64,000 nucleotides of DNA, from positions 372,001 through 436,000 of the forward strand of contig NZ_JAEVLS010000005.1 in assembly GCF_016801985.1 (NCBI RefSeq), given 5' to 3'. Shown one piece after another: positions 11,817-47,909 of the stretch. The notes beneath the pieces were generated by a model. It was not told where the DNA came from, made no database searches, and worked only from the letters and a program-made list of their open reading frames with translations. Source of the DNA: Steroidobacter gossypii. Its GTDB lineage: Bacteria; Pseudomonadota; Gammaproteobacteria; Steroidobacterales; Steroidobacteraceae. A program made the translations under genes and the position numbers. The stretch's first letter is position 1, and each line of letters begins with the position of its first letter.

Positions 11817-12183
11817 GCTGGTCTCCAACAAGAATGCAGTGAGAACGGTGTAGGCTGGTAGAGTGACGATGTTGTGGTGATGCCACGATCGAACATCGCT
11901 GCGCCTAATACGCGGCGAAGCGACGCGGTTCCGCGACAGTGATGAAATCTGGAACTGCGGCGTTGTGACATGCGTAGACCTGAGACCTGAAAGCTTCCTC
12001 GCGCCATGATGCGCAGCGAATCGGGTCGCTTCCGCTACGCACGAGCACCCGCAGCGGCTTTTGAACCAGGAACGATCGATTCGGATGAATTCAGGCGAGT
12101 CAGCAAATCCACGGGGCGTCGGCGCCTCGTCCCCACCCCGATCCAGACCACCCCTGCCGCCGCAGCGGTCGTCCCAGAAAACC
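11817..12183. other. Divergent intergenic region with an inverted repeat
   Basis: About 370 bp separating the minus-strand nucleotidyltransferase-treZ-treY operon from plus-strand opgG-opgH. It contains a nested dyad at 11867-11898: CGATGTT pairs with AACATCG, and inside it GTGG pairs with CCAC. This lies about 50 nt upstream of the nucleotidyltransferase start. Part of the plus-strand side (12061-12183) is open in frame with opgG and could be an N-terminal extension. No other gene is visible. Confidence 0.5.
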
Positions 12184-15821: not shown

Positions 15822-15885
15822 CCAGGAACTTCGTTTCCATGCAGCCCATTGCTCCTGGAGCCAGCCACATTCGAGGAGCAAGCAT

Positions 15886-16509: not shown

Positions 16510-16535
16510 CCTTTGTAAATGACACGCTGAAACAC

Positions 16536-17071: not shown

Positions 17072-17100
17072 TCGATCTCACTAGTCACCCCTTGGCCCAC

Positions 17101-17134: not shown

Positions 17135-17590
17135 ATGGGCATGACGACTCTGGCGCGCACTCGCGCACTCACTGCTGAAGATCGGCCACGCTGGGACCAG
17201 TTGTGGTCGCAGTTCCTCGCCTTTTATCAGCAGACCCTGCCGCAATCGACCACCGACCTCACCTGGCAGCGCTTGATGGAAGGTCACGAGCTATGGGGCC
17301 TCGCCGGGCTCGATGACACGGGCCGGATGGTCGGCTTCGCGCACTACCAGTTTCATGTGTCGACCTGGTCGCCCGCCGGCTATTGCTATCTGGAGGATCT
17401 GTTCGTCGATCCGCAAAGTCGCGGTCGTCACGTCGGCCGCGCACTGATCGAAGCGGTGTACCGGGCCGCCGATGAACGAGGTGCGACGCGCGTGTACTGG
17501 CACACGGAGAACACCAACGCCCGTGCGCAGATTCTGTACAACCAAGTCGGTTACCTGACGCCGTTTCTGCAATTTCGCCGCCGCCCCTGA
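17135..17590 (+). CDS. GNAT-family N-acetyltransferase
   Basis: A GNAT acetyltransferase of about 151 aa that would move an acetyl group from acetyl-CoA to an amine. The acceptor is unknown. Core features are GRMVGFAHY, YLEDLFVDPQSRGRHVGRALIEAV (the acetyl-CoA pyrophosphate loop), and the ending YWHTENTNARAQILYNQVGY. There are three clustered ATGs at 17129, 17135 and 17141. The middle one has ideal spacing (7 nt) from AGGAAG, so it is preferred. The ribosome binding site lies inside a 14-bp hairpin, suggesting control of translation. Confidence 0.9.
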   Translation: MGMTTLARTRALTAEDRPRWDQLWSQFLAFYQQTLPQSTTDLTWQRLMEGHELWGLAGLDDTGRMVGFAHYQFHVSTWSPAGYCYLEDLFVDPQSRGRHVGRALIEAVYRAADERGATRVYWHTENTNARAQILYNQVGYLTPFLQFRRRP

Positions 17591-17608
17591 ACGATCCGGC
17601 ACAAAGCG

Positions 17609-17635
17609 TCCGGTAATTTCGTCCGGAACTTTTTA
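17609..17635 (+). terminator. Weak candidate terminator after the GNAT gene
   Basis: TCCGG (17609-17613) pairs with CCGGA (17623-17627) around a 9-nt loop and is followed by ACTTTTT. The stem is only 5 bp, so termination would be inefficient at best. Confidence 0.35.
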
Positions 17636-17685
17636 CGGCGGTGGGGCATTGAGTCGCGCTGGAAACAAAGCTCGACGAGTTGCGG

Positions 17686-19917
17686 ATGGTGTCAGCGGCT
17701 TTAACATCCGATCTCAACCTCGACTTATGCGCGCAAGAACCTATCCGGACCCCGGGCAGCATTCAGCCGCATGGCATGCTCGTGGTGGTGGATCCCCTCA
17801 ATCGGTGTATCGTGCAGGCAAGCGCCAATGCAAAGGCGCTGCTCGGCCGCGACCGTGGTTCGAGCGTGCTCGGCTTATCGCTGGCCGAGCTGGTCGGTGA
17901 ATCGGCGGAAGATCAAATCCACGGCTGGCTGGCCAATCCCGACAGCAGCTATTTGCGTACTTTGGACGTGAACGGTCGACGCCTGCAGGTGCTTCGCCAT
18001 CAAACGCCTCAGGGGATCATTCTCGAATTCGAGCAGCCACCGGCGTCCGAAGGTGAAACGCTCGAAGCCTATTACCCGCGCGTCGGCCGTTTCATGGAAG
18101 ACCTGCCGGCGTACGAGAACGTCGCCGAGCTCTGTTCAGCGGCGGCGCGCGAGTTTCGCCAGATCAGCGGCTTCAATCGAGTTCTGATCTATCGCTTCGA
18201 CGAGCAGTGGAACGGCGAAGTGCTGGCCGAGGATGGCGACGGCGTGCTGCCGTCCTACGCCGGGCTGCGTTTTCCCGCCACCGACATCCCGGCGCAGGCC
18301 CGAGAGTTATATCGCCTCAACCGGCTTCGCGTGATCCCGGATGCGAACTACACGCCTGTGCCGATGGAGCCGTCACTGCATCCCGCCGATGGCAAACCGC
18401 TGGACCTGAGTTTCGCCGCGCTTCGCAGCGTGTCGCCGGTCCATCTGCAATACATGCGGAACATGGGCACGCTCGCGTCCATGTCGATCTCGGTGCTGGT
18501 GGACGATCGGCTGTGGGGCCTGGTGTCCTGTCACAACGCCACGCCGCGCCGGGTGAATGCGCAGGCGCGTACCGCATGCGATCTGCTGGGCAAGGTTTTG
18601 TCACAACACATCGGCGCTCGCGACCGCGGCGCCTATGCGGCCCGGCGCATCGATGTGAAACGGATCGAAAGCGAGCTGCTCGCCAGGATCGCCGCCAACG
18701 ATTCGTTTCAAAGCGGGCTGGCCGCCAACGCGAACATCTGGTTGAAGATCGCCGACGCCACCGGCGCAGCGGTCCTGCATGACGACACGTTGTTCACCGC
18801 CGGAGTAACGCCCGCCCCCGATCGCCTGCGCGCGCTGGCCGAACAACTGCAGCAGCGAACCGCCGATCACTTCGTCACCGACAGCCTGGTGCGACAGTGG
18901 CCCGAGTTCGAGGACATCGTCGACGTGGCGAGCGGCGTGCTGGCCATCTCCATCTCCCAGCTGCATCCCAGTTATATCCTGTGGTTTCGTCCGGAAGTGC
19001 AACGAACCGTGTTGTGGGCCGGCGATCCCAGCGCAGCCAGGCAAGAGGAGAACGAGCGCCTCACGCCACGCCACTCGTTCGCGAGCTGGAAGGAACGAGT
19101 GAAGAATCGGGCCCTGCCCTGGTCGCAGGCGGAGCTCGACGGTGCGCTCGAGTTTCGTAACGCCATCATCAACTTCGTGCTCCGTCGCGCCGAGGAACGA
19201 GCCGAGCTCACCAGCCAATTGCAACGTTCCAACCGCGAGCTGGAGTCCTTCTCTTACTCGGTGAGCCACGACTTGCGCGCGCCGTTTCGTCACATCGTCG
19301 GCTACACGCAGTTGTTACGCGATCGCGAGAGGTCGTTGAGCGAACAGTCGCAACATTATCTCGACAGCATCAACGAGGCCGCCGCCTCGGCCGGCCAGCT
19401 GGTCGACGATCTGCTCGCCTTCTCGCAACTCGGCCGCACGGCCCTATCGATGGGCCCGGTCGACATGCACAAGGTGGTGCAGGAAATCGTGCGCTCGGTC
19501 GAGCCCGACGTGCGCAATCGCCAGATCGAATGGCGCATCCAATCGTTGCCGCCGGCCACCGGCGATGCCGCGCTATTGCGCCAGGCGCTGTTCAACATCA
19601 TCGACAACGCACTCAAGTACAGTCGCGACCGCTCGCCGGCGGTGATCGAGATCGTCGGCGAGCAGCGGCCGAACGAAAGTATCTACATCGTGCGCGACAA
19701 CGGCGTCGGCTTCGACATGGCGTACGCGCACAAGCTGTTCGGCGTGTTTCAGCGGCTGCATCGCATGGAAGATTTCGCCGGCACCGGCATCGGCCTGGCA
19801 TTGACTCAGCGAATCGTCGAACGGCATGGCGGCTGGATCGAGGCGCGTGGCGCCATCGACCGCGGCGCCGAATTCCGTTTTGGCATTCCTCGCCAAGGAG
19901 ACAATGTCGATGGCTGA
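17686..19917 (+). CDS. bphP: Bacteriophytochrome histidine kinase
   Basis: A 743-aa red/far-red photoreceptor kinase. The PAS domain (about 1-115) carries the biliverdin-binding Cys15 in LDLCAQEPI, followed by the GSIQPHG motif. The GAF domain (about 135-305) has PATDIP (the D200 position), the pyrrole-water His in SPVHLQYMRNMG, and the second His in LVSCHN. A PHY domain follows (about 315-490), then a HisKA domain with H528 in SYSVSHDLRAP. The HATPase shows DNALKY, DNGVGFD and GTGIGLALT. The architecture is the standard PAS-GAF-PHY-HK. A TTG two codons upstream is less likely than this ATG. It overlaps the response regulator by 14 nt, and the heme oxygenase lies 2.9 kb downstream. Confidence 0.96.
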   Translation: MVSAALTSDLNLDLCAQEPIRTPGSIQPHGMLVVVDPLNRCIVQASANAKALLGRDRGSSVLGLSLAELVGESAEDQIHGWLANPDSSYLRTLDVNGRRLQVLRHQTPQGIILEFEQPPASEGETLEAYYPRVGRFMEDLPAYENVAELCSAAAREFRQISGFNRVLIYRFDEQWNGEVLAEDGDGVLPSYAGLRFPATDIPAQARELYRLNRLRVIPDANYTPVPMEPSLHPADGKPLDLSFAALRSVSPVHLQYMRNMGTLASMSISVLVDDRLWGLVSCHNATPRRVNAQARTACDLLGKVLSQHIGARDRGAYAARRIDVKRIESELLARIAANDSFQSGLAANANIWLKIADATGAAVLHDDTLFTAGVTPAPDRLRALAEQLQQRTADHFVTDSLVRQWPEFEDIVDVASGVLAISISQLHPSYILWFRPEVQRTVLWAGDPSAARQEENERLTPRHSFASWKERVKNRALPWSQAELDGALEFRNAIINFVLRRAEERAELTSQLQRSNRELESFSYSVSHDLRAPFRHIVGYTQLLRDRERSLSEQSQHYLDSINEAAASAGQLVDDLLAFSQLGRTALSMGPVDMHKVVQEIVRSVEPDVRNRQIEWRIQSLPPATGDAALLRQALFNIIDNALKYSRDRSPAVIEIVGEQRPNESIYIVRDNGVGFDMAYAHKLFGVFQRLHRMEDFAGTGIGLALTQRIVERHGGWIEARGAIDRGAEFRFGIPRQGDNVDG

Positions 19918-20380
19918 TCTGCGGCCCATTCTGCTGGTCGAAGACAATCTGAAAGATATCGAGCTGACTCTGGCGGCGCTGGCGAAATGTCAGCTCGCCA
20001 ACGACATCGTGGTGGCGCGCGATGGCGCCGAGGCGCTCGACTACCTGTATTGCCGCGGCCAATACCAGGACCGCCCGCCGGGCGATCCGGCGGTGGTGCT
20101 GCTGGACCTGAAGCTGCCGAAGGTCGACGGCCTGGAAGTGCTCGCCAAACTCAAAACCGATGGACTCACACGCGCCGTGCCAGTGGTCATGCTCACCTCC
20201 TCGCGCGAAGAAAGCGATCTGGTGCGCAGTTACGAGCTGGGCGTCAACGCCTTCGTGGTCAAGCCGGTGGACTTCAACGCGTTTTTCGAAGCCATTCAGG
20301 GCCTGGGGATGTTCTGGGGCGTTCTGAACGAGACCCCGCCGCGCAGCGTGCCGGCGCCCCGCCTGGAGAGAAAGACCTAG
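19904..20380 (+). CDS. Single-domain response regulator, phytochrome partner
   Basis: A 158-aa receiver with no output domain, like the Rcp1/BphR regulators paired with phytochromes. ILLVEDN carries the acidic pocket, the phosphoacceptor is D68 in LLDLKLPKVDG, the conserved Thr/Ser lies in VVMLTSSREESD, and the Lys in FVVKPVDF. The start at 19904 has AGGAG 4 nt upstream, inside the end of bphP, so the two are translationally coupled. It probably takes phosphate from BphP H528 and passes it to another protein, for example the hybrid kinase encoded next. Confidence 0.93.
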   Translation: MSMADLRPILLVEDNLKDIELTLAALAKCQLANDIVVARDGAEALDYLYCRGQYQDRPPGDPAVVLLDLKLPKVDGLEVLAKLKTDGLTRAVPVVMLTSSREESDLVRSYELGVNAFVVKPVDFNAFFEAIQGLGMFWGVLNETPPRSVPAPRLERKT

Positions 20381-20382
20381 TC

Positions 20383-22782
20383 ATGGCCGCCGAGCTTGCA
20401 CCCCGCTCGAACACGCACGCGCGCATCCTGCTGCTCGAGGACAGCGAGATCGACGCCGAGCTCGCCATCACCCATTTGTCGAAGGCGGAAACTCGCAGCA
20501 GCATCGAGCGGGTCGCCAGTCGCGACGATTTCGTGCGCGAGCTCGGCAGCGGCGGCTACGACGTGGTGCTCGCGGATTATTCGCTGCCGGACTTCGACGG
20601 ACTGGCGGCGCTGGACATGGTGCGCGAACTCTGGCCGGACATGCCTTTCATCTTCGTCTCCGGCGTGGTCGGCGAAGAGTTCGCCATCAATGCATTGCGC
20701 CGGGGCGCCACCGACTACGTGATGAAGCGTGGCCTGAGTCGATTGCCCGCGGCGGTGGATCGCGCGGTCGCCGAAGCGCGCGAGCGGCAGGATCGCGTGC
20801 GAGCCGAGCAGGCGCTGCGGATCAGCGAGACCAGCGCGCAACTCGCCATCGAAACCGCGGGTCTCGGTCGTTGGGAGCTCGACCCGGTCACCGGCATCCT
20901 CGATCTCGATGCGCGTTGCCGGGAGTTGTTCGGCCTGACGGTCGACGCCAGCGCCAACCAGGAAGCGTTCCTGAGATGTTGTCACAGCGGCGACCGCGAG
21001 CGCATCGAAACCCTGTTGCGCACGGCACTGCAAGCTCCCAACGCAAACGTCTCGACCGAATTCCGGATCGTTCGCCCGGGCGACGCACAGGAACGCTGGA
21101 TTGCTCTGACCGGACGGGCATTTCACGACCGCGGCGCCTGCACGCGACTGATCGGCATCGTCAACGACATCACCGAGCGCAAACAAACCGAGACGGCTTT
21201 GCATGATCTGAATCAGACCTTGACCTTGCGCGTCGCTCACAAGACCGCCGAGCGCGATCATCTGTGGCAGTTGTCGAAAGATCTGATGGCGGTGATGACG
21301 CCGGCAGGCGCGCTGATAGAAGTCAATCCGGCATGGCAGGCAGCGCTCGGCCACGGCACCAGCGAAGTGGTCGGCGAGCATCTGGCAAGGTTTGCTCATC
21401 CGGACGACGCCGCCATCGTGCAACAGGCGGTCACGCACGCCGCGCTGGAAAGTCAGCGGCCGTTCGAATGCAGATTCCTGTGTCGCGACGGTCAGCCTCG
21501 CTGGATCTCGTGGTCGACGGCGCTCGGGCACGGCTGCATCTACGCGGTGGGCCGCGACGTGAGCGAGGACAAAGCTGCGCAGCTCAAACTGGAGCACGCG
21601 CAGGAAGCTCTGCGGCAGGCGCAGAAGATGGAGGCGGTCGGCCAGCTCACCGGCGGCCTGGCGCACGACTTCAACAACCTGTTGCAGATCGTGGTCGGCA
21701 ACATAGAAACCTTGCAACGTAAGCTGCCGCCCAATCTGGATCGCTTGCGACGCGCCGCGGATCACGCCATGGCCGGCGCGCAGCGCGCGACCAATCTCAC
21801 TCAACACCTGCTCGCGTTTTCACGCAGACAGCCGTTGAATCCGCGCCCGGTGGCCGTCAATCGACTGGTCGCCGGCATGTCGGAGATGTTGCAACGGACG
21901 CTGGGCGAGCTGATCGAAGTCGAGACGGTCCTGTCGCCCGAGCTGCGTCACGTCGAGATTGACAGCAATCAGCTGGAAATCGCGCTGTTGAATCTTGCCG
22001 TCAATGCGCGCGACGCGATGCCGGACGGGGGCAAGCTGCGCATCGAAACATTCAATCTGGATCTGCGCGAGGACCTGCTCGCCGATGCGGAAGGTCTGCC
22101 CCGCAACGAGTACGTTGTGCTCAATGTTCGCGACACCGGCACGGGCATGCCGCCCGAAGTGCTGGCGCGCGCTTTCGAACCTTTCTTCACCACCAAGAGC
22201 GTCGGCCAAGGCACCGGCCTGGGCCTGTCGCAGGTGTATGGCTTCGTTCACCAATCCGGCGGACAGGTGCGGATCGCTTCGACGGATGGTGCAGGCACTG
22301 CCATTCGCATCTATTTGCCTGCGGCCCGGCCGGACGCGCAGCTGCCCGATGAAGACGACGCACGCGAGCCGCCACTGGCGGTCGAACGAAAAACCATTCT
22401 GGTGGTCGAAGACGATCCCGACGTACGCGCTTTTACCGTCGAGACCGTGGGTGAGCTTGGCTACGATGTTCTGGAAGCGCGCGATGGCGTCACTGCGCTC
22501 AACCTGCTGCGTCAGACGCCTGCCGGCGACATCGATCTGTTGTTCAGCGACGTGGTGTTGCCGGGAGGCTTGAATGGCCAGCAACTGGCTCAGCAGGCCC
22601 TGTTGCTCCATCCCCGCTTGAAAGTTCTGTTCGCGACCGGTTATGCGCGCGATGTGATCGTGCATCATGGAAGGCTCGATCCGGGCGTGCAGTTGATCAC
22701 CAAACCTTTTGCCTTCGATGACCTGGCGGCGCGCATTCGTAGCGTGCTGGAGGGTCAGGACTCAGCACGACATGCCAATTGA
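20383..22782 (+). CDS. Hybrid histidine kinase, REC-PAS-PAS-HK-REC
   Basis: A 799-aa soluble hybrid kinase. The N-terminal receiver (1-125) has D65 in VLADYSLPDFDG. Two PAS-like domains (about 145-265 and 290-395) follow; the first closes with GIVNDITERKQ. The kinase core has H428 in GGLAHDFNNLLQ, with NLAVNARDAMPDGG, DTGTGMP and GQGTGLGLSQVYG as ATP-binding boxes. A C-terminal receiver (about 670-790) has D723 in LLFSDVVLPGG. No transmembrane segment is visible. The start lies 2 nt after the regulator stop. The two receivers fit a phosphorelay that both receives from and returns to other proteins. It overlaps bphO by 11 nt. Confidence 0.95.
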   Translation: MAAELAPRSNTHARILLLEDSEIDAELAITHLSKAETRSSIERVASRDDFVRELGSGGYDVVLADYSLPDFDGLAALDMVRELWPDMPFIFVSGVVGEEFAINALRRGATDYVMKRGLSRLPAAVDRAVAEARERQDRVRAEQALRISETSAQLAIETAGLGRWELDPVTGILDLDARCRELFGLTVDASANQEAFLRCCHSGDRERIETLLRTALQAPNANVSTEFRIVRPGDAQERWIALTGRAFHDRGACTRLIGIVNDITERKQTETALHDLNQTLTLRVAHKTAERDHLWQLSKDLMAVMTPAGALIEVNPAWQAALGHGTSEVVGEHLARFAHPDDAAIVQQAVTHAALESQRPFECRFLCRDGQPRWISWSTALGHGCIYAVGRDVSEDKAAQLKLEHAQEALRQAQKMEAVGQLTGGLAHDFNNLLQIVVGNIETLQRKLPPNLDRLRRAADHAMAGAQRATNLTQHLLAFSRRQPLNPRPVAVNRLVAGMSEMLQRTLGELIEVETVLSPELRHVEIDSNQLEIALLNLAVNARDAMPDGGKLRIETFNLDLREDLLADAEGLPRNEYVVLNVRDTGTGMPPEVLARAFEPFFTTKSVGQGTGLGLSQVYGFVHQSGGQVRIASTDGAGTAIRIYLPAARPDAQLPDEDDAREPPLAVERKTILVVEDDPDVRAFTVETVGELGYDVLEARDGVTALNLLRQTPAGDIDLLFSDVVLPGGLNGQQLAQQALLLHPRLKVLFATGYARDVIVHHGRLDPGVQLITKPFAFDDLAARIRSVLEGQDSARHAN

Positions 22783-23416
22783 AGCTACGCCCGACACTCT
22801 GCTCGCCTCCACCAATCGCCGCAATTCCCTGCGTGGAGCCACCGATCATCTGCATCGCGACCTCGATCGACTGGCGGCCGCTTTCAATCTGGCGGATATC
22901 ACGCATTACCGGCGTTTCCTGCAGGCCAACGCCACCGCGCTGATCGCCATCGAGCAGTTGCTCGAGAGCGCGGGCGTCGCGCAACTGCTGCCCGACTGGC
23001 CGCAACGTTCGCGGCGCTCGGCCATCCTTGCCGATCTGCACAGCCTCGGCTCCGACGTGCAACCGTTCGCGTTGCGGCGGGCGGCGCCGACGCCGCCGGA
23101 AATGTTCGGTGTTCTGTATGTATTGGAAGGCTCACGTCTCGGCGCGCGCGTACAGCTGGAGCAAGTCATGACCAGCAGCGACGAGAGGGTTCGTAACGCA
23201 TCTACTTATCTGCGTCATGGCCAGCCGACGCTCGGCCAGGACGGAGTGCAAAGCGTCGGCTTGTGGCGCAGCTTCCTGGAGCAGCTGGAATCCAACGAAG
23301 CGGCCGACGATCAGACACAGAGCGTATCGGGCGCCGTCTATGCGTTCACGATGTTTATTCGCTCGTTCGGCCGAGCGGCCAACGAGCTGAGTTTGCGCAC
23401 TGCACCAGCGGCCTGA
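22772..23416 (+). CDS. bphO: Biliverdin-producing heme oxygenase
   Basis: A 214-aa heme oxygenase of the bacterial BphO type. It opens heme to biliverdin, the chromophore of the phytochrome encoded upstream. The proximal-His helix is GATDHLHRDLDRL, and the distal helix contains VLYVLEGSRLGARVQ with the flexible Gly-rich stretch. The C-terminal part has the AYAFTMF-like VYAFTMFIRSF segment. The chosen ATG (22772) overlaps the hybrid kinase stop; an earlier start at 22709 would extend deep into it. Placement in this operon supports the assignment. Confidence 0.93.
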   Translation: MPIEATPDTLLASTNRRNSLRGATDHLHRDLDRLAAAFNLADITHYRRFLQANATALIAIEQLLESAGVAQLLPDWPQRSRRSAILADLHSLGSDVQPFALRRAAPTPPEMFGVLYVLEGSRLGARVQLEQVMTSSDERVRNASTYLRHGQPTLGQDGVQSVGLWRSFLEQLESNEAADDQTQSVSGAVYAFTMFIRSFGRAANELSLRTAPAA

Positions 23417-23443
23417 GCCGCAGCAAACGTTAACTCACACGGT

Positions 23444-23460
23444 CCTGCGTCGCAGGTTTT
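23444..23460 (+). terminator. Candidate terminator after bphO
   Basis: CCTGC (23444-23448) and GCAGG (23452-23456) form a tight GC-rich hairpin with a 3-nt loop, directly followed by TTTT. It is small, but it is placed 27 nt after the bphO stop and before a gap, so it may end the phytochrome operon. Confidence 0.45.
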
Positions 23461-23562
23461 GCGCGCCAACGCGTTCGGCGCACTGGAACTGTGCGCCACA
23501 TCGCGTGTCCTGTGACGGCAGTTGGCGACACTGCGGCCACGTCCTGGTGAGTACGTGGATCA

Positions 23563-25107
23563 ATGTCTTATCTCGTCGTTTGTGTTTGGGTCGCGCTGTG
23601 TGCGGTTGCAGCCTGGGCATTCTCGCTCCAGCGCCGGTTGCGCGAACTGGATGCACGAATCGTCGAAGCCGAAGCGCAGCATCGGGAATTCATCGAGCAG
23701 GTGGAACATGGCGGCATGGTCCGACGCAAGATCGAAGCGCAGCTGTTGGAGAACCAACAACGACTCGACCGGCTCGCACATCATGACCAGCTGACCGGCC
23801 TGCCCAATCGTTTGTTTCTTGCCGCGCATCTGCCCGCAGCCATCGCCGATGCCCGCCGCAATAAAGTCGCGCTGGCCGTGCTGTTCGTCGATCTGGATCG
23901 TTTCAAGCATGTCAACGACACGCACGGCCACGAGGTCGGCGACAGGCTATTGCAATCGGTGGCGCAACGAATCACCGACGCGGTGCGCAGCGAAGACCTC
24001 GTGGTGCGCATGGGTGGCGATGAGTTCGTGGTCGTGCTCAATTCCGTCAGGAGCAACAACCAGGTTCACGAGACTGCTGCACGCATCACCGCTGCACTCG
24101 GCGCCCCATTGCAGATAGATGGCAAGCCGCTCGTCACCACGGCGAGCGTCGGCGCGAGCATGTTCCCGCGCGATGGCGAGGACGTGGGCGCCCTGCTGCG
24201 CCACTCCGACACAGCGATGTATCGAGCCAAGGGATGTGGCCGGAACAATTTCCAGGTCTTCAGCCCGGTGATGGACCGGCAGCTGAAGGAGCGCCTCGCC
24301 ATCGAAACCAGTCTGCGCACGGCGCTGGCAACTCAGACGCAGCTGGATGTGCACTATCAGCCGCTGGTGGATCTCGAGACGCGTCGCGTGGTTGCGCTGG
24401 AAGCGCTAGTGCGATGGAAACATCCCAGCGAGGGCCATGTCTCACCGCTACGTTTCATTCCCATTGCCGAGGAGACCGGCCTGATCGGCGAACTGGGCGA
24501 CTTTGTACTGCAGCGGGTGGTCGCCGACATGGCCCGCTGGCGCAAAGCCGGACACGCGGCGCTGGCGCCGGTGGCTATCAATGTCTCCGCCGGTCAGCTG
24601 GCCCGCTGCGACCTGCGTGGACGCATCGCCGAGCTGACCCAGGCCAACCGGCTGAGCCCGGCGCTGCTGCAGATCGAGCTCACCGAGGGCGCAATGTTCG
24701 ACCGGGTGGGCGCCGAGGCGATCGAGGCGTTGCGGGCGCTCGGCGTGCGCGTGGCCATCGACGACTTCGGCACCGGCTATTCGTCGCTGAGCTCTCTGCT
24801 GCGCTGGCGCGTCGACTCCTTGAAGATCGATCGCAGTTTCATCCAGGACCTCGCCACCGACCGCAACCATCACGCCATCGTCGCGGCCATGGTAGCGATG
24901 GCCCAGCACTTGAGCATCAAGGTGATCGCCGAGGGCGTAGAAAGCTGGTCGCAGCTGGCAACGCTGCGCCAACTGGGCTGCCGCTACGCCCAGGGTTACC
25001 TGTTCGCCGAAGCGGCGCCGGCGGAACGGTGCCGGGAATTCCTGGAGGGCAGCCCGCTCGCCCAGGCGGACTTCGACGCCGAGCCGCTCAAAGCGGTGAG
25101 CGCCTAG
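23563..25107 (+). CDS. Diguanylate cyclase / phosphodiesterase (GGDEF-EAL)
   Basis: A 514-aa c-di-GMP enzyme. An N-terminal hydrophobic segment (about residues 3-20) is a membrane anchor, followed by a short coiled coil (about 22-70). The GGDEF domain (about 75-235) has an intact MGGDEF active site and an RSED inhibitory site exactly five residues before it. The EAL domain (about 250-500) keeps EALVRW, INVSAGQL, ELTEGAM, DDFGTGYSSLS, KIDRSF, EGVE and QGYLF. Both activities may therefore be present. No clear ribosome binding site is seen; a dyad (CCACGT/ACGTGG, 23537-23558) lies just before the ATG. It follows the phytochrome genes and may be their output. Confidence 0.95.
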   Translation: MSYLVVCVWVALCAVAAWAFSLQRRLRELDARIVEAEAQHREFIEQVEHGGMVRRKIEAQLLENQQRLDRLAHHDQLTGLPNRLFLAAHLPAAIADARRNKVALAVLFVDLDRFKHVNDTHGHEVGDRLLQSVAQRITDAVRSEDLVVRMGGDEFVVVLNSVRSNNQVHETAARITAALGAPLQIDGKPLVTTASVGASMFPRDGEDVGALLRHSDTAMYRAKGCGRNNFQVFSPVMDRQLKERLAIETSLRTALATQTQLDVHYQPLVDLETRRVVALEALVRWKHPSEGHVSPLRFIPIAEETGLIGELGDFVLQRVVADMARWRKAGHAALAPVAINVSAGQLARCDLRGRIAELTQANRLSPALLQIELTEGAMFDRVGAEAIEALRALGVRVAIDDFGTGYSSLSSLLRWRVDSLKIDRSFIQDLATDRNHHAIVAAMVAMAQHLSIKVIAEGVESWSQLATLRQLGCRYAQGYLFAEAAPAERCREFLEGSPLAQADFDAEPLKAVSA

Positions 25108-25154
25108 TCGCCCGAACGCGGTCCTGCCTCGAAAGAAAATTTTTCAAAGAACCG

Positions 25155-25182
25155 GGAACCGTCGAAACGCGCCGTGCGTATC
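25155..25182 (+). promoter_or_regulatory. Possible ECF-type promoter upstream of rsbR
   Basis: GGAACC (25155-25160), a 16-nt spacer, then CGTATC (25177-25182) resemble the GGAAC / CGT pattern of extracytoplasmic-function sigma promoters. It lies in a 198-bp gap about 125 nt upstream of rsbR. The match is short and could be chance. Confidence 0.25.
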
Positions 25183-25305
25183 GCCTCGTCGGGCGTCGCC
25201 AGCGGTAGACGTCCCTCACCCCCGTTGCAATGAAGGCTCCGCGAGCGAGCCACTCTCAAGCTACTTTCGATCGGGCCTCGCGCGGGCCACACACAGGAGT
25301 CGCGG

Positions 25306-26178
25306 ATGAACCGACTGGCAAGTCGACTGCCGGCCATTGTCGAGCAGCATCAACGAGAAATTCTCGCCGAATGGGTCAGACTTCAGTTGGAATCCGGTAA
25401 CTGGCGCGCCGGCCGGTTACAGGAATCGCAGCTCCGGGACGAGTCGCAAAAGTTCATCGGCCTGCTCGCCGGCACCCTTCAGAACACAGTTCAATTCGAC
25501 GCGCGCAACGCGCAGTGGGCGGAGCTTCGCGAGTTTCTGAGCGAGCTGTCCCGCAGCCGCGCCACCCAGGGCTTCTCGCCCTCGCAAGTGGCTACCTTCG
25601 TGTTCTCGCTGAAGCAGCCGATCTTCGGACGCCTGCGCCTCGCCCTGGCCAAGGAGCCCGAGGCGCTGGCGGACGCCATGTGGGAGATCAACACGCTGCT
25701 GGATGCGCTCGGCCTGTACACCACCGAGGTGTATCAGCAGGCGCGTGAAGCGGTGATTTCCCGCCAGCAGGAGGAACTCATCGAGCTGTCCACACCGGTG
25801 GTCGAGCTGTGGCCCGGCATCCTGGCGCTGCCGCTGATCGGTACGCTGGATAGCGAGCGCACCCAGGTGGTGATGGAAACGTTGCTGCAGCGGCTGGTCG
25901 CCACCGGGTCGAGCATCGCGGTGATCGACATCACCGGCGTGCCGACCGTCGACACACTGGTTGCACAACACTTGCTCAAGACCGTCTCGGCCGCGCAGCT
26001 CATGGGCGCGGACTGCATCATCAGCGGCATCCGTCCGCAGATCGCGCAAACCATCGTGCACCTCGGCATCGACCTGTCGGCGGTCGCCACCAAAGCCAGC
26101 CTGTCGGACGCGTTCGCGCTCGCACTCAAGCGGCGCGGCCTGGCGGTGACTTCCAGCACCGCCGCGGCTCGAGGATAA
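25306..26178 (+). CDS. rsbR: Stressosome sensor protein RsbR
   Basis: A 290-aa RsbR-family protein. The N-terminal half (1-155) is a helical RsbRD-type sensor domain (it begins RLPAIVEQHQREILAEWV) rather than a globin or PAS. The C-terminal STAS domain (about 165-275) contains LPLIGTLDSERTQ and VIDITGVPTVDTLVAQHLL, with T217 at the phosphorylatable position. The end is GADCIISGIRPQIAQTIVHLGIDL. It should co-assemble with RsbS into the stressosome shell and be phosphorylated by RsbT. A GGAG ribosome binding site lies 7 nt from the ATG. It is first of seven tightly packed genes. Confidence 0.94.
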   Translation: MNRLASRLPAIVEQHQREILAEWVRLQLESGNWRAGRLQESQLRDESQKFIGLLAGTLQNTVQFDARNAQWAELREFLSELSRSRATQGFSPSQVATFVFSLKQPIFGRLRLALAKEPEALADAMWEINTLLDALGLYTTEVYQQAREAVISRQQEELIELSTPVVELWPGILALPLIGTLDSERTQVVMETLLQRLVATGSSIAVIDITGVPTVDTLVAQHLLKTVSAAQLMGADCIISGIRPQIAQTIVHLGIDLSAVATKASLSDAFALALKRRGLAVTSSTAAARG

Positions 26179-26182
26179 CGCG

Positions 26183-26566
26183 GTGGATCGCGTCCCGATT
26201 CTGCGCCTGGGCGATTGTCTGCTGGTCACGGTGCAAGTCGACATGCACGACGAGCTGGCCATGAGCCTGCAGGACGATCTGACCAACAAAATCGTCGCAA
26301 CCAAGGCCCGCGGCGTGCTGATCGACATTTCCGCGCTGGAGATGGTCGACTCGTTCATCGGCCGCATGCTGGGCAACATCGCCTCCATGTCGCGCATCCT
26401 CGATGCGCAAACCGTGGTGGTCGGCATGCAGCCCGCGGTCGCCATCACTTTGGTCGAGCTTGGATTGTCGCTGCCTGGCATTCGCACCGCATTGAATGTC
26501 GACGCAGGCCTCGCGTTGCTGCGGCGTGCGCTCGACCGGGGCGACGAAGGCGGCTATGTCGATTGA
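26183..26566 (+). CDS. rsbS: Stressosome scaffold protein RsbS
   Basis: A 127-aa single STAS-domain protein. S57 in LEMVDSFIGRML is at the position phosphorylated by RsbT in Bacillus RsbS. ILRLGDCLLVTVQVDM and VVVGMQPAVAITLVELGL are also characteristic. It starts with GTG, with GAGG about 9 nt upstream, 4 nt after the rsbR stop. It should form the shell with RsbR and hold RsbT until phosphorylated. It overlaps rsbT by 11 nt. Confidence 0.94.
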   Translation: MDRVPILRLGDCLLVTVQVDMHDELAMSLQDDLTNKIVATKARGVLIDISALEMVDSFIGRMLGNIASMSRILDAQTVVVGMQPAVAITLVELGLSLPGIRTALNVDAGLALLRRALDRGDEGGYVD

Positions 26567-26960
26567 ACCAACGACGCTGCCCGTGCGTTCCGGCGAAGAC
26601 GTGGTCAAGGTCCGTCAAGCTGTTCGCACCTTGGCCATGGATCTGGGCTTCAGCCTCGTGGATCAGACCAAAGTCATCACCGCAGCAAGCGAGTTGGCGC
26701 GCAACACGCTGACCTATGGCGGCGGCGGCGAAGTCCGCATCGAACGTTTGAACCAGGGCCCGAAGCGCAGCGGCGTGCGCCTCACGTTCGAGGATCGCGG
26801 CCCCGGCATCGCCAATATCGAGCTGGCCCTGACCGATGGTTACACCACCGGCACCGGTCTCGGCCTGGGGCTCAACGGCGCAAGGAAGCTTTCCCATGAA
26901 TTCGATATATGGTCACAGCCCGGCGTCGGCACGCGTGTGACCATTACTCGCTGGAAGTAG
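26556..26960 (+). CDS. rsbT: Stressosome switch kinase RsbT
   Basis: A 134-aa GHKL ATPase that phosphorylates RsbS and RsbR and is then released to act on a downstream partner. The N-box is SELARNTLTYGGGG, the G1 box EDRGPGIANIE, and the G2 box GTGLGLGLNGARKL, all intact. It is slightly shorter than the longest reading from 26496, which lacks a ribosome binding site; this ATG lies inside the rsbS end. The canonical partner RsbU is absent. The next two proteins both carry RsbT-like domains instead. Confidence 0.94.
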   Translation: MSIEPTTLPVRSGEDVVKVRQAVRTLAMDLGFSLVDQTKVITAASELARNTLTYGGGGEVRIERLNQGPKRSGVRLTFEDRGPGIANIELALTDGYTTGTGLGLGLNGARKLSHEFDIWSQPGVGTRVTITRWK

Positions 26961-27956
26961 ATGCAACAGTTCTCCATTGGCGACCCCAGCGCCGTCGCGC
27001 CTGCCCGGCGCGGCATCAATACGCTTGCCGGCTCGCTGGGTTTCGATGCCGAAGACACCGGCCGTGCAGCGCTGGTTGCGACCGAGATCGGCACCAACCT
27101 GGTCAAGCACGGCGGCGGCGGCGAACTGATCGCGCAACGGATTTCGCACGCCGGCCGCAGCGGTCTGGAACTGCTGGGGCTGGACAAGGGGCCCGGCATC
27201 GACGACGTGGCCAAGTGTTTGCGCGACGGCTATTCCACCAGCGGCAGTCCGGGCACCGGACTGGGTGCGATGGAGCGCATGTCGGAGCGTTTCGAAATCT
27301 ATTCCCGGCCTGGCCAAGGCACCGCGGTGCTGGCGCAATTGTGGCCGGACTCACGTGCGCCGGCCGAGCCGCGCGTGCAGATCGGTTCACTCGTGGTGCC
27401 CAAGCCGGGCGAGACCTCCTGCGGCGATTCGTGGTGCTATCACGAGCGCGTCGAAGGGGTTCTGGTAGTGGGCATCGACGGGCTGGGTCATGGCTTCGCC
27501 GCTCAGCAGGCCGCCATCGAAGCTTGTCGCGTATTCGACGCCGAGAACCATCGCCCGGTGCTACGTCTCATGCAGATGCTGCACGAAGCGCTGCGCCCGA
27601 CGCGTGGAGCCGCCATCACCTTGGTGGAAGTGGATTGGGATGCCGGCCGCGCCACTAGCGTGGCGGTGGGCAATGTGACTGCCGCGCTGGTCAATGACGG
27701 CGAAGTCAAAAGGATCGCGTCCGACAACGGCATTGTCGGTCATGTGATTGCGCGGCCCCGCGAGCTGCAGCATCCCTGTAAGCCCGACTCACTGCTGATA
27801 TTGCATTCGGACGGCCTGACCTCGAGCTGGCAGCTGGATCGCTACCCTGGCCTGACGCAGCATCATCCGGCGCTGATCGCGGGCGTGTTACATCGGGACT
27901 TCCGGCGTGGCCGCGACGACAGTCTGGTCGTTGTCATCCGACGCACGCCGTCATGA
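26961..27956 (+). CDS. RsbT-like ATPase fused to SpoIIE/RsbX-type phosphatase
   Basis: A 331-aa fusion. Residues 1-130 are a second RsbT-like ATPase with ATEIGTNLVKHGGGG, LDKGPGIDD and GTGLGAMERM. Residues 140-330 are a PP2C/SpoIIE phosphatase of the RsbX kind: CGDSWCYH, IDGLGHGFAA, LHSDGLTSSW and RDDSLVVV, with the metal-binding Asp residues kept. It probably dephosphorylates RsbS/RsbR to reset the stressosome. The start follows the rsbT stop with no spacer, with GGAAG as the ribosome binding site, and it overlaps the next gene by 4 nt. Confidence 0.92.
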   Translation: MQQFSIGDPSAVAPARRGINTLAGSLGFDAEDTGRAALVATEIGTNLVKHGGGGELIAQRISHAGRSGLELLGLDKGPGIDDVAKCLRDGYSTSGSPGTGLGAMERMSERFEIYSRPGQGTAVLAQLWPDSRAPAEPRVQIGSLVVPKPGETSCGDSWCYHERVEGVLVVGIDGLGHGFAAQQAAIEACRVFDAENHRPVLRLMQMLHEALRPTRGAAITLVEVDWDAGRATSVAVGNVTAALVNDGEVKRIASDNGIVGHVIARPRELQHPCKPDSLLILHSDGLTSSWQLDRYPGLTQHHPALIAGVLHRDFRRGRDDSLVVVIRRTPS

Positions 27957-29722
27957 ATCGTTCTCTGCTGCGACTGGAGCTCGCCCAGGATCGCGACATC
28001 GTCACGGCCCGGCAACGTGCGCGCCAGGTCAGCGCCCTGCTCGGTTTCGACTCTCAGGATCAAGTTCGCATCGCCACTGCCGTTTCGGAGCTGGCGCGCA
28101 ACGCCATGCGCCACGCCGGCGGCGGGGCCATCGAATTCATCCTGGCGGAAGCGCCGGCGCGCGCTTCCCTGCATATCAGCAACCCGCAGCTGCAGATCGT
28201 TATCAGCGACCACGGACCGGGCATCTCCAATCTGGACGACGCGATCAACGAGTCCGGCAACGGTGAAGTGAAATTGGGACTGGTGGCGGCCCGGCGCCTC
28301 ATGGATACCTTCGATGTTTATTCCGGCAAAGGACGCGGCACGACCATCACGCTTGGCAAGTTCGTGCCTCGCCGCACCGAGGGCTTTACTGCCGCGCGCA
28401 CCGCCGCCATCGTCGCGCAGCTGGCGGCGGACGGGCCCACCGATCCGACCACCGAGATTCAATATCAGAATCGCGAGCTGTTGCGCAGCCTGGAAGAGCT
28501 GCGCTTGCGCAAAGAAGAATTGGCGCGCTTGAACGCCGAGCTCGAAGACACCAACCGCGGCGTAATGGCGTTGTATGCGGAGCTCGAAGAGCGAGCCGCA
28601 CACCTGCGGCTGGCCGATGAAACCAAGACCCGCTTCCTGTCGGCCGCGAGTCACGAGTTCCGCACGCCGGTGAACTCCATCCTGGCGTTGTCCAAGATCC
28701 TGTTGCATCGGCTGGACGGCGATCTTACAGCCGAGCAGGAAAGACAGGTCACGTACATCCGTCAGGCCGCCGAGCAACTCTCGACCATGGTCGACGACCT
28801 GCTCGACCTGCGCAAAGTCGAATCGGGCAAGCTGCAGCTGCGCGTCGAACCGTTCACTGTCACCGATCTGTTCGGCGCGCTGCGCGGCATGTTCAAGCCG
28901 CTCAGCATCAAGGACACCGTCTCGCTCACGTTCGAGGAAAATGGCGCGTTGCCCGAGCTGCATACCGATCAGGGCAAGGTTTCGCAGATTCTGCGCAATC
29001 TGATTTCCAACGCGCTGAAGTTCACCGAAGCCGGCTCGGTGCGCGTGACCGCACGACTGGCCGCCGACACCGATATGATCGTGTTCTCGGTGGCGGATAC
29101 CGGCATCGGCGTCGCGCCGGAAAATCATCGGCGCATTTTCGACGAGTTCACACAGGTCGAGAACCCGCTGCAAAAGCATGCGAAAGGCACCGGTCTGGGC
29201 CTGCCCCTGTCGCAGCGGCTGGCCGGGCTGCTCGGCGGCAGTATCGATGTCGCCAGCGAGCTGGGCAAAGGTTCGGTGTTCTCCCTGGCCATTCCTCTGC
29301 GCCTGGCCACTTCGGCGCCGCTTGGCGTGCCGTCAACGCCCCATGCCCGCGAAGCGCAGCGCGTGCTGATCGTCGACGACAGCGAAATCGAGCGCTATGC
29401 GTTGCGCCAGTTCCTGCCGAGCCGTACCTTCGAAGTCATCGAGGCCAGCGGCGGTTACGAGGGCCTGCGGCTGGCGCGGCAATCGCACCCCGATCTGATC
29501 TTCCTCGATCTGGCCATGCCCGACGTGCACGGCCTGGAAGTGCTCAAGATGCTCAAGGCCATCGAGGAGACTCGAAACATTCCGGTGATCCTGTTCACCT
29601 CGCAACGCGCGGACGATATCCCCGCAGAATCGGCGACTGCGGCCAGCGCATTACTGTTGAAGAGCGAGATGTCACGCGAGTCGGTCGCGGCCGTGATCCG
29701 GCGCGTCGGCAGTCGGGAGTAA
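27953..29722 (+). CDS. RsbT-like domain / histidine kinase / receiver fusion
   Basis: A 589-aa soluble protein. Residues 1-140 are a third RsbT-like GHKL domain (SELARNAMRHAGGG, SDHGPGISNLD), but its G2 box reads NGEVKLGLVAARR without the GTG motif. A coiled coil (about 170-225) leads to a HisKA domain with H234 in AASHEFRTPVNS. A full HATPase follows: LISNALKFTEAG, DTGIGVAP and GTGLGLPLSQ. The C-terminal receiver has D519 in LIFLDLAMPDVHG. It therefore joins partner-switching and two-component signalling in one chain. It is likely the effector contacted by RsbS or the stressosome, an inference from domain order. Confidence 0.93.
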   Translation: MNRSLLRLELAQDRDIVTARQRARQVSALLGFDSQDQVRIATAVSELARNAMRHAGGGAIEFILAEAPARASLHISNPQLQIVISDHGPGISNLDDAINESGNGEVKLGLVAARRLMDTFDVYSGKGRGTTITLGKFVPRRTEGFTAARTAAIVAQLAADGPTDPTTEIQYQNRELLRSLEELRLRKEELARLNAELEDTNRGVMALYAELEERAAHLRLADETKTRFLSAASHEFRTPVNSILALSKILLHRLDGDLTAEQERQVTYIRQAAEQLSTMVDDLLDLRKVESGKLQLRVEPFTVTDLFGALRGMFKPLSIKDTVSLTFEENGALPELHTDQGKVSQILRNLISNALKFTEAGSVRVTARLAADTDMIVFSVADTGIGVAPENHRRIFDEFTQVENPLQKHAKGTGLGLPLSQRLAGLLGGSIDVASELGKGSVFSLAIPLRLATSAPLGVPSTPHAREAQRVLIVDDSEIERYALRQFLPSRTFEVIEASGGYEGLRLARQSHPDLIFLDLAMPDVHGLEVLKMLKAIEETRNIPVILFTSQRADDIPAESATAASALLLKSEMSRESVAAVIRRVGSRE

Positions 29723-29728
29723 GCCAGC

Positions 29729-30781
29729 ATGTCAAACACTGAAATCATACTGAACGTCGACGACAACGAACCGGGGCGGTACGCGACCACGCGCATCCTG
29801 AGTCGCGCCGGCTTTCAGGTGATCGAAGCGGGCACCGGCTCGGAAGCATTGCGTCTGGCGCGCAGCGCCTCGCCGCAGCTGGTGATCCTGGACGTGAACC
29901 TGCCCGATATGAACGGCATCGAAGTCTGCCGGCAGCTGAAGACCGATCCCCATACGGCGAGCATCATGGTGCTGCAGGTCTCCGCCACCAATGTCGCTTT
30001 GCTGGATCGGGTGTCTTCGTTACAGGCCGGCGCCGACAGCTTCCTGATCGAACCGGTCGAGCCCGAGGAGTTGGAAGCCGTGGCGCGCGCACTGCTTCGT
30101 CTGCATCGCACTGAGGCGCAGCTGCGTCGCTCATTGGCCGAACGCGAACTGTTATTGCGCGAAGTCAATCATCGCGTGAAGAACAGCTTGCAGCTGGTGC
30201 TCAGCATGTTGAGCCTGCAAGGCAACGAATTTCGAGAGGCCGGCGCCAGAGAAATCTTCGCCAAAGCCATTGCGCGCGTGACCGCCATCGCTTCGATTCA
30301 CGAGCGGCTTTATCAAGACAACGATCCGCTCAGCATCGACATGCACACCTATTTGAACGGGTTGTGTGCGGAACTGGCGCGCGCCGGCATTGGCGAAGAA
30401 CGTCACGCCGACCTGCGCACCGAGATCGAGCCGCTGCGGCTGCCGACTGAAAATGGCGTGTCGCTCGCCTTGATCGTCAACGAGTTGGTGATGAACGCGC
30501 TGAAGCACGGCCGTCCGGTGGATCGACCCGCCATCGTCCACGTCAAGCTGCGTCGCCTCGACTCCGGCCAGGGGCAACTCATCATCGCCGATAACGGCCC
30601 GGGACTGACGGCCAGCGCGTCGCGCGAAGCGATCGTCGCATCGAGCGGATTGGGCTCGCGGCTGATCAACATGTTGGTGCGGCAACTCAACGGCCAGCTG
30701 CGCATCGAAGATGCCGATGGCTACGCCGTGCATATCACCTTTCCCCTGCAGCCAGCCCCGACATGGGGACCGAAGTCTTAA
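29729..30781 (+). CDS. Receiver / HWE-type (HisKA_2) histidine kinase
   Basis: A 350-aa soluble protein. The N-terminal receiver (1-125) has D55 in VILDVNLPDMNG. The HisKA_2 domain has H148 in LLREVNHRVKNSLQLV, and the HATPase shows VNELVMNALKHG, DNGPGL and SGLGSRLINMLVRQL. Such proteins receive phosphate and control a second kinase step. Here the donor could be the upstream fusion kinase. The ATG lies 6 nt after the previous stop, and the gene overlaps the next by 19 nt. Confidence 0.93.
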   Translation: MSNTEIILNVDDNEPGRYATTRILSRAGFQVIEAGTGSEALRLARSASPQLVILDVNLPDMNGIEVCRQLKTDPHTASIMVLQVSATNVALLDRVSSLQAGADSFLIEPVEPEELEAVARALLRLHRTEAQLRRSLAERELLLREVNHRVKNSLQLVLSMLSLQGNEFREAGAREIFAKAIARVTAIASIHERLYQDNDPLSIDMHTYLNGLCAELARAGIGEERHADLRTEIEPLRLPTENGVSLALIVNELVMNALKHGRPVDRPAIVHVKLRRLDSGQGQLIIADNGPGLTASASREAIVASSGLGSRLINMLVRQLNGQLRIEDADGYAVHITFPLQPAPTWGPKS

Positions 30782-31137
30782 TCGTCGAAGATCAGGTGCT
30801 CATTGCCATCCACCTGCAGGACCTGGTGGAGGAGGCGGGGTACCGGGTCGCCGCGATCGCGCACGATGCGGCCGGTGCACTGGCCGAGGTCGCGCAACAG
30901 CGCCCTGCGTTCGCCATCATGGATATTCGCCTGGCGAACGGCGGCAGCGGCGTCGAGGTGGCGCGTCAGTTGTATCTCGAATATGGCGTGCGCTGCTTGT
31001 TCATCAGCGCCAATATCAACGATGAAGTACGCGCCCGCGTCGCCGAACTGCAGCCCCTGGGCTTCATCGGCAAACCGTTCCTGGCGGCCGAAGTGATCGG
31101 CGCCGTGCAAGCCGCAGCGCTTGCAACCGCACGCTAG
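30763..31137 (+). CDS. Single-domain response regulator
   Basis: A 124-aa lone receiver of the AgmR/Rec type paired with HWE kinases. VLIVEDQVL supplies the acidic pocket, and D54 in AIMDIRLANGGSG is the phosphoacceptor. FISANIND and GFIGKPF carry the conserved switch and Lys positions. It has no output domain, so its effect must be protein-protein. It closes the seven-gene stressosome operon, and its stop overlaps the convergent hutG stop by 4 nt. Confidence 0.92.
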   Translation: MGTEVLIVEDQVLIAIHLQDLVEEAGYRVAAIAHDAAGALAEVAQQRPAFAIMDIRLANGGSGVEVARQLYLEYGVRCLFISANINDEVRARVAELQPLGFIGKPFLAAEVIGAVQAAALATAR

Positions 31138-31922
31138 CTTCGCGCCTTGAGATAGCGCGTCAGCAGCTGAGCGATCAACGTCTGTGCCGATTGCGCGCGC
31201 TGCGGATTCCAACCAGTGCCAGCCGCTTCATCCATGTACACGCGACGCGAAAGCTCCAACTGCACGGCATAGATCCCATCGCTGGGTCGGCCGTAATTCT
31301 GCGTGATGTATCCGCCTTTGAAGCGACCGTTCAACACCGCCCCGAACTTGCCGTCCGATGTCACCAGATCCAGCAGCTGATCGGCGACGGCGCGTGGACA
31401 ACTCGCATCGTCGCGCGTACCGAAGTTGAATTCGGGCAGCACGCCGGCGAACAGCGAGGGCACTTCGCTCGCGATCGAATGCGCATCCCAGAGCAAGGCA
31501 TAGCCGTGACGCTCCCGCATGGCGTTGAGCTCGGCGGCCAGTCGCTGGTGATACGGCTGCCAATACTGCTCGATTCGCGCCTGGATCTCGGTCGCGGTGA
31601 CCTCACGACCCGGAGCGTAGAGGGGCTCGTTGTCGAACGTAAGTGTCGGGCACACCGGCGAGGTGGGATTGCCAACGTACAGCGACGCCGAATCCGGCGA
31701 GCGATTCAAGTCGACCACGTAGCGCGAATAGTTGGCCTGCAAAATGGAGACGCCCAGCTCGCGCGTGAACTCATATAACTTCTCGACATGCCAATCCGTA
31801 TCCGCCAGGCGACTGCCGGCCAGAGTGAAACGTGTTGCGATCGCTTCCGGCACGAACGTACCCGCGTGCGGAATGCTGATCAGCAGCGGCAGCGAGCCTT
31901 GGTGATACTCGTAAATGTTCAT
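31134..31922 (-). CDS. hutG: N-formylglutamate deformylase
   Basis: A 262-aa amidohydrolase that removes the formyl group of N-formyl-L-glutamate, the last step of the HutF/HutG histidine degradation branch. Motifs are SIPHAGTFVPE, TDWHVEKLY, RYVVDLNRSPD and LLWDAHSIASEVPSLF. FKGGYITQNYGRP and VQLELSRRVYMDE follow. It starts 10 nt after the hutF stop, so both are in one operon. Confidence 0.95.
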   Translation of the reverse strand: MNIYEYHQGSLPLLISIPHAGTFVPEAIATRFTLAGSRLADTDWHVEKLYEFTRELGVSILQANYSRYVVDLNRSPDSASLYVGNPTSPVCPTLTFDNEPLYAPGREVTATEIQARIEQYWQPYHQRLAAELNAMRERHGYALLWDAHSIASEVPSLFAGVLPEFNFGTRDDASCPRAVADQLLDLVTSDGKFGAVLNGRFKGGYITQNYGRPSDGIYAVQLELSRRVYMDEAAGTGWNPQRAQSAQTLIAQLLTRYLKARS

Positions 31923-31932
31923 GCGGGCCGTC

Positions 31933-47832: not shown

Positions 47833-47909
47833 CGTTTCGGAACAGCGCACTGTTGTAAGGCGTTGCCTGCTCGGGACTAATCCATCCCGCCACCAACGAG
47901 GAACACCTC

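Follow-up and report, generated by a model that had tools for sequence, protein, structure and literature searches.

Light-sensing and stressosome operons side by side in Steroidobacter gossypii, with putative EcfG-type promoter sites before each

A run of twelve genes in Steroidobacter gossypii, which places a bacteriophytochrome, a protein with GGDEF and EAL domains and a stressosome in immediate succession, raises the question of whether these sensors form one signaling pathway, are merely neighbours, or are tied together by some other means. The run lies in a stretch of 64,000 nucleotides (nt), here called the window (contig NZ_JAEVLS010000005.1, positions 372,001 to 436,000), from the 7.1 Mb genome of this gammaproteobacterium of the Steroidobacteraceae. 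We found that the twelve genes resolve into two modules of known kind plus a GGDEF-EAL gene standing by itself, and that their adjacency is local and indicates no integration. The bphP and rsb operons each carry their own conserved putative promoter site of the extracytoplasmic function (ECF)/EcfG type, and the same genome encodes a PhyR-NepR-EcfG-like system. The explanation we favour, which we hold to be about evenly poised between right and wrong, is that two operons with starts of their own, and a GGDEF-EAL gene belonging to neither, became neighbours in one lineage of their genus (Steroidobacteraceae), and that the two operons are joined by expression in a PhyR-NepR-EcfG regulon.

Two known modules and a free-standing gene

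Open reading frame calls and domain scans verified the gene order in the block (17686-31137), and bore out the twelve same-strand genes and their domains as an earlier, sequence-only reading of this DNA had named them:

17686..19917, + strand: bphP, bacteriophytochrome histidine kinase (PAS_2-GAF-PHY-HisKA-HATPase; Cys15 near the N-terminus)
19904..20380, + strand: RR1, single-domain receiver of the phytochrome response-regulator kind (lone REC)
20377..22782, + strand: hybrid kinase (REC-PAS-PAS-HisKA-HATPase-REC)
22772..23416, + strand: heme oxygenase (PF01126 at 28.9 bits, cut-off 23, in a scan from 22769; presumed start)
23563..25107, + strand: free-standing GGDEF-EAL protein (domain scan)
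25306..26178, + strand: rsbR (RsbRD_N-STAS)
26183..26566, + strand: rsbS (STAS; presumed GTG start)
26556..26960, + strand: rsbT, switch-kinase ATPase (RsbT-type ATPase)
26961..27956, + strand: fusion of an RsbT-like ATPase and a SpoIIE (PP2C) phosphatase (domain scan; putative RsbX-like role)
27953..29722, + strand: fusion of an RsbT-like ATPase and a HisKA-HATPase-REC hybrid kinase (domain scan)
29729..30781, + strand: REC-HisKA_2-HATPase kinase with an HRXXN motif, HRVKN (HisKA_2 79.8 bits, HWE 27.3 bits)
30763..31137, + strand: single-domain receiver (lone REC)

The block falls into three parts, namely a light set (17686-23416), the GGDEF-EAL gene (23563-25107) and a stressosome set (25306-31137). 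Genes of the light set overlap one another and those of the stressosome set overlap or are spaced by at most 6 nt, whereas the GGDEF-EAL gene is isolated on both sides, because a gap of 146 nt (23417-23562) separates it from the heme oxygenase gene and one of 198 nt (25108-25305) from rsbR. The sequence-only reading had given the second gap correctly and omitted the first; its caution that the sets may be separate operons is supported.

The sensor kinase of the light set shows the PAS-GAF-PHY architecture with an N-terminal cysteine, and is linked to a heme oxygenase, a receiver and a hybrid kinase, the constitution by which we recognized a bacteriophytochrome operon. BphP matched solved full-length bacteriophytochromes, the best being 8uph (e-value 2.2e-129). 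RR1 recovered the phytochrome response regulators 5brj (8.7e-65) and 5ic5 (2.7e-56), the latter of which we take to be RtBRR of Ramlibacter, as well as RcpA and Rcp1. The phytochrome chromophore is made by heme oxygenase. The same four gene kinds make up the putative RtBphP1 operon of Ramlibacter tataouinensis, described as heme oxygenase, bphP1, the receiver RtBRR and the atypical hybrid kinase RtBHK (PMC6848086). The window operon differs in having the heme oxygenase gene last and an EcfG-type site upstream, and the likeness is one of gene kinds.

In the stressosome set, RsbR (sensor-STAS), RsbS (STAS) and RsbT (ATPase) are encoded next to each other, as in an RsbRST module. RsbR matched solved stressosome chains (7o0i, 9o4r and others), and its T180, T186, T214 and T217 are invariant in ten out of ten aligned sequences; these threonines may correspond to the phosphorylation sites known from B. 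subtilis. The penultimate protein had been called an HWE kinase; it is a kinase, but the scores place it in the sister family HisKA_2. Gram-negative RsbRST-X stressosomes with a phosphorelay output are known from Vibrio and others (PMC9237108, PMC4976288), and like these modules the window has RsbR, RsbS, RsbT and a PP2C phosphatase followed by two-component proteins. Those papers describe a globin-type RsbR and a single-domain RsbX, whereas in the window RsbR has an RsbRD_N region and the phosphatase forms a fusion with an RsbT-like ATPase.

Most of a set of 80 named loci, the best among at least 587 stressosome loci, share this fusion; in 47 of them the sequence covers over 5 kb ahead of rsbR and over 9 kb counted from its start. 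The five-gene core of the stressosome operon is in order in 65 of the 80, while a contig end interrupts most of the remaining 15. The terminal REC-HisKA_2 kinase has full matches in eight of the ten rsb loci of the genus (not in the genomes G004 and G008), while its kinase half was matched at 1e-6 among the named loci only in a congener; weaker full-length matches were seen in L137 and L143. Two other arrangements were observed in passing. At L242 (G522:C2, from about 10979), rsbRST and an RsbT-like region run directly into a HisKA_2 kinase-region match, a possible RsbT-HisKA_2 fusion, and in L134 (Hydrococcus sp. Prado102) rsbRST and the genes for the phosphatase and kinase fusions form separate runs that diverge. 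The window stressosome operon is flanked (31134-34637) by genes for an N-formylglutamate amidohydrolase and two amidohydrolases, probably concerned with histidine breakdown and kept in G006.

Putative promoter sites and a PhyR-NepR-EcfG-like locus

Both bphP and rsbR are preceded by a GGAAC element followed, after 17 positions, by a CATT or CGTA element. The window holds five sites of this kind:

11951..11976, + strand: GGAAC-N17-CGTA, 5' of the OpgG/MdoG gene (12061); kept in G001, G003 and G011
15825..15850, + strand: GGAAC-N17-CATT, 5' of the hemerythrin-domain gene (15886); kept in G001, G003 and G011
17625..17650, + strand: GGAAC-N17-CATT, 5' of bphP; kept in five of five genomes with the block and before the separate bphP operon of G008
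25155..25180, + strand: GGAAC-N17-CGTA, 5' of rsbR; GGGAACC-N15-GCGTA in six of six aligned genomes
47839..47864, + strand: GGAAC-N17-CGTT (exact form), 5' of the DUF6496 gene (47910); kept in G003 and G011

We scanned the window for GGAAC-Nn-C(A/G)T(T/A), letting n vary over 8-33, and recorded which matches fell in the zone up to 160 nt 5' of a gene start, which makes up 6.8% of strand positions. With a spacing of 17 there were five matches, all on the + strand in the sense direction and all within the zone, while the 25 other spacings gave 24 matches, none of them in it. The chance of five out of five is about 1.5e-6, and that of three out of three, when the pattern-suggesting bphP and rsbR sites are left aside, about 3e-4 (calculated by hand). 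The exact form occurs once in the window, against 0.73 expected. By coordinates, corresponding sites are present at all five places in G003 and G011, at the four of four that G001 holds and at the two of two that G009 holds; G006 has the rsbR site and, with a spacing of 16 or 17, further sites upstream of its genes for hemerythrin, DUF6496 and OpgG. Apart from the bphP and rsbR regions, which were aligned, the correspondence of sites between genomes was judged from these coordinates. Given that the rsbR site is retained in G006, where a different upstream gene, of the GNAT family, lies 135 nt before rsbR, the stressosome operon appears to have its own start. The light operon of G008, distant from its stressosome, has GGAAC-N17-CATT 208 nt upstream of bphP, and at distances similar to that in the window rsbR is preceded by GGAAC-N17-CGTT in G008 and GGAAC-N16-CGTT in G004. 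Taken together, placement and conservation make it fairly well supported that the window sites form one promoter class, and co-regulation of the two operons through this class is on balance probable.

Two of the other genes behind such sites may be described briefly. The OpgG/MdoG gene is followed by a glycosyltransferase gene (11951-15821, site included), and the pair probably serves the synthesis of osmoregulated periplasmic glucan. The small DUF6496 gene (47839-48158, likewise) starts 46 nt behind the exact site. A second bphP of the same genome (L172, G000:C11:722000-740000, 8628-10805), 30% identical to the first, has no GGAAC site within 900 nt upstream, and the same is true of the light operon of G331. 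A GGAAC-N17-GTCC sequence before the GGDEF-EAL gene was considered as a promoter and rejected, as it is not kept in relatives. We also discarded the idea that the site and the HisKA_2 terminal kinase always go together: G004 and G008 carry the site but give no full match to the kinase, and G012 shows the reverse, the kinase without the site. A sigma-70 scan of the window returned no promoter-like site (1.8 in shuffles), and a terminator scan returned four terminator-like sites (9.7 in shuffles), none at either the 146- or the 198-nt gap.

Outside the genus, an EcfG-type site was found before rsbR in one of 77 named loci (400 nt upstream), the background being 58 of 3185 windows, and in none of 16 upstream regions evaluated from a further 20 loci, alphaproteobacterial-type loci included (four had too short an RsbR match). 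The site is thus at background before rsbR elsewhere, and is therefore a feature of this genus and not of stressosome operons.

A candidate reader of these sites is encoded elsewhere in the window genome, in a complete-looking locus (L234, G000:C11:1628000-1646000, 7297-10997) comprising genes for PhyR, NepR, an EcfG-like sigma factor and a kinase with Cache and HisKA_2 domains. PhyR, divergent from the sigma gene (C11, 1.636 Mb), matched PF22029 (2.5e-27), PF22233 (5.6e-20) and a receiver domain, scored 369.4 bits against the NF006623 cut-off of 240, and recovered the solved PhyR 3n0r (2.1e-89). The 62-residue NepR, which precedes the sigma factor, scored 54.2 bits with PF18557 (1.1e-14; cut-off 25.7); its best solved match is 3t0y (6.1e-6), and with NF051865 it reached 38.3 bits, below the cut-off of 100. 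The canonical GGAAC-N17-CGTT lies 56 nt before nepR, the Cache-HisKA_2 kinase follows the sigma gene, and close by a DUF1328 gene and a small lipoprotein-like gene are each preceded by a further canonical site, the two sites lying back to back. Among the genome-wide matches listed there are four such back-to-back pairs of exact sites within about 150 nt, where about 0.1 would be expected (by hand), and at nine exact sites (those of these four selected loci and the one before nepR) an open frame starts 21-115 nt downstream. We scanned the best 30 of the 74 Sigma70_r4_2 matches of the genome for a site 5' of their own frame, using one mechanically chosen frame per locus, so that some gene starts may have been missed; the sigma gene beside PhyR was the single one to have it.

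This locus shares with the alphaproteobacterial general stress response the divergent phyR and nepR-ECF sigma genes, the HRXXN kinase alongside and the GGAAC-N16/17-CGTT sites. In that system phyR and nepR-ecfG diverge and an HRXXN kinase is encoded close by (PMC8103513), the EcfG1 motif of Rhizobium etli is GGAAC-N16-CGTT, and EcfG has been called exclusive to the Alphaproteobacteria (PMC3892343). The present case differs in that its host is a gammaproteobacterium and that the membership of bphP and rsb in the regulon is our proposal. We found no report of PhyR-NepR-EcfG in a gammaproteobacterium in the accessible portions of the literature searched, papers on stressosomes and PhyR among them (PMC4598750, PMC3999984); this partial coverage is no proof of absence. 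We infer from the sequence that the sites act as promoters and that this sigma factor reads them.

Several observations weigh against that proposal. The 160-nt zone and the relaxed ending were chosen after the sites had been seen, and some gene starts were set mechanically. With N16 or N17 the relaxed pattern is expected 2.27 times per shuffled window, and five or more matches anywhere arose in 9 of 100 shuffles. The window sites of bphP (CATT) and rsbR (CGTA) are each one base off CGTT, and within 900 nt upstream no such site precedes rsbR in G012, a congener, or in G022. Its ECF-type domains and its place beside PhyR and NepR suggest that the sigma gene belongs to the EcfG (ECF15) group, yet it reached no specific NCBIfam cut-off. 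Given the 74 Sigma70_r4_2 matches, another ECF factor could read the sites, and the one self-site found among them is by itself not above background (84 of 7221 windows). The evidence for PhyR comes from the window genome. Finally, exact GGAAC-N16/17-CGTT is not enriched genome-wide (142 matches against 156 in the control), and the argument therefore rests on the placement and conservation of the sites.

The neighbourhood within and beyond the genus

We compared 14 genomes of the genus, including that of the window (G000). RsbR was detected in ten of them and a PHY domain in seven, all of which also have RsbR. The full block is kept in order in G000, G003 and G011, and apparently also in G001 (two contigs) and G009 (three contigs), where contigs break off within it and their ends are consistent with that order. 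This agreement between assemblies shows that the gene order is no artefact. Nearly all conserved genes between about 4 and 56 kb of the window are likewise collinear in G003 and G011, and the retention of the block there is therefore background synteny only. Elsewhere in the genus the parts come apart. G008 spreads them over three contigs: the four light genes, still together, are at another genome position on C2, the stressosome is on C5, and C1 carries the GGDEF-EAL orthologue. G006 keeps the stressosome operon and its flanking genes and lacks the light block and the GGDEF-EAL gene, no PHY domain being found in this 84%-complete assembly. In G002 a GGDEF-EAL orthologue (70%, as in G008) stands at a contig start in a genome with neither PHY nor RsbR. 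G004 has a different phytochrome (34%) on another contig. A stressosome without PHY is found in G007 (75% complete) and G012, and in other genera of the family in G019 and G022. No adjacency beyond background synteny was thus detected.

The wider survey gave a similar picture. In a class sample of 369 genomes, 16 had PHY, 22 RsbR and four both; the corresponding counts for a phylum sample of 398 were 66, 48 and 20. Leaving out the window genome, the two sensors co-occur in 19 genomes of the phylum sample where 7.7 are expected (hypergeometric p 2e-5; 20 against 8.0 with it) and in three of the class sample where 0.86 are expected (p 0.05), figures that take no account of shared ancestry or genome size. 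Of the 22 Pseudomonadota genomes outside the genus with both sensors, not one brings the two within 20 kb of each other on a single contig. The pair shares a contig in eight (closest 50.6 kb, in G698) and lies on different contigs in 14, where a contig break could hide adjacency. The flanks of the rsb locus were read in 18 of the 22 (all but G466, G642, G748 and G760) and held no match to the phytochrome sensor region, the kinase part being matched in some. Among the 80 named loci the light set accompanies the stressosome in one, which belongs to a congener and is not independent. The only other complete phytochrome match is in L139 (Duganella phyllosphaerae T54, 10001-18414), where the stressosome operon is followed, after some 0.5 kb, by the gene of a 31% phytochrome in the opposite orientation; as one case in 80 we judged this proximity to be chance. 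L102 has a partial GAF-region match.

The sequence-only reading had proposed that light, stress and cyclic di-GMP signals meet through this neighbourhood, and had named dispersal in related genomes as the mark of coincidence. Such dispersal is largely what we found, with three contigs in G008, no light block in G006 and, outside the genus, the sensors within 20 kb on one contig in none of 22 genomes (on different contigs in 14), and the proposed meeting of signals is left unsupported. The statement that the sets are known singly and undescribed side by side holds for the literature searched, in the accessible parts of which we found no precedent for bphP-rsbRST adjacency. The themes themselves have precedents, given that YtvA of B. 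subtilis joins light and stress (PMC6848086, PMC12627116) and that a Moorella stressosome is reported to act on a diguanylate cyclase, as cited in PMC4976288.

Competing explanations and what they imply

Under the favoured explanation, light would alter the bacteriophytochrome, which would signal to its receiver and hybrid-kinase partners. In the second operon, stress would loosen the hold of the RsbR/RsbS core on RsbT, the fused phosphatase would reset that core, and, judging from their domains, the RsbT-domain hybrid kinase, the REC-HisKA_2 kinase and the lone receiver may relay the signal as a phosphorelay. Both sets would be made once the general stress sigma factor is free, and the stressosome would then sense its own signal.

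The strongest competitor is a plain neighbourhood of two widespread modules, with GGAAC sites read by one or more other ECF factors and no common regulon, which we regard as a substantial possibility short of an even chance. The lack of adjacency outside the lineage, the many ECF-type matches, the lack of enrichment of the exact site and the differing -10 parts of bphP (CATT) and rsb (CGTA) all agree with it. However, both -10 variants recur in the window with the same spacing of 17, CATT before the hemerythrin gene and CGTA before OpgG, and the same genome has PhyR-NepR and an EcfG-like gene with a canonical site. A single integrated pathway for light, cyclic di-GMP and stress, with cross-talk among its receivers and kinases, would account for the twelve genes remaining in order in three genomes, and apparently in G001 and G009, as well as for the co-occurrence of PHY and RsbR beyond chance. 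We consider it very improbable, given the dispersal in G008, G006 and G002, where the GGDEF-EAL gene stands alone, the result of none in 22 outside the genus, and the background synteny in G003 and G011. One long transcript across the block also seems most unlikely: the genes share one strand and no terminator-like site was seen at either gap, but the two gaps far exceed the spacing within the sets, and rsbR has its own conserved site, which is kept where the upstream genes are absent.

An extension of the regulon proposal makes the stressosome an input to PhyR, its signal running from the RsbT-domain hybrid kinase to the HRXXN kinase and on by way of the lone receiver; transcription of the stressosome and phytochrome operons by the EcfG-like sigma factor would then close a feedback loop. 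The HRXXN kinase and lone receiver at the operon end resemble alphaproteobacterial pathways into PhyR. In Caulobacter the single-domain receiver MrrA is a hub, with HWE/HisKA_2 kinases, upstream of PhyR (PMC5964349), and the same arrangement may apply here. The loop is conceivable, though we think it doubtful. Were it true, light sensing would be raised under stress, and two partner-switching systems, one known from Bacillus and the other from the Alphaproteobacteria, would be joined in series.

The neighbourhood noted earlier thus breaks up inside the genus, and if the regulon proposal is correct, shared expression rather than neighbourhood would explain the joint production of the light and stress sensors. 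A system described as exclusive to the Alphaproteobacteria would then extend to another class. If this operon lies in, or feeds, a PhyR-EcfG regulon, the question of which targets Gram-negative stressosomes have would become directly testable.

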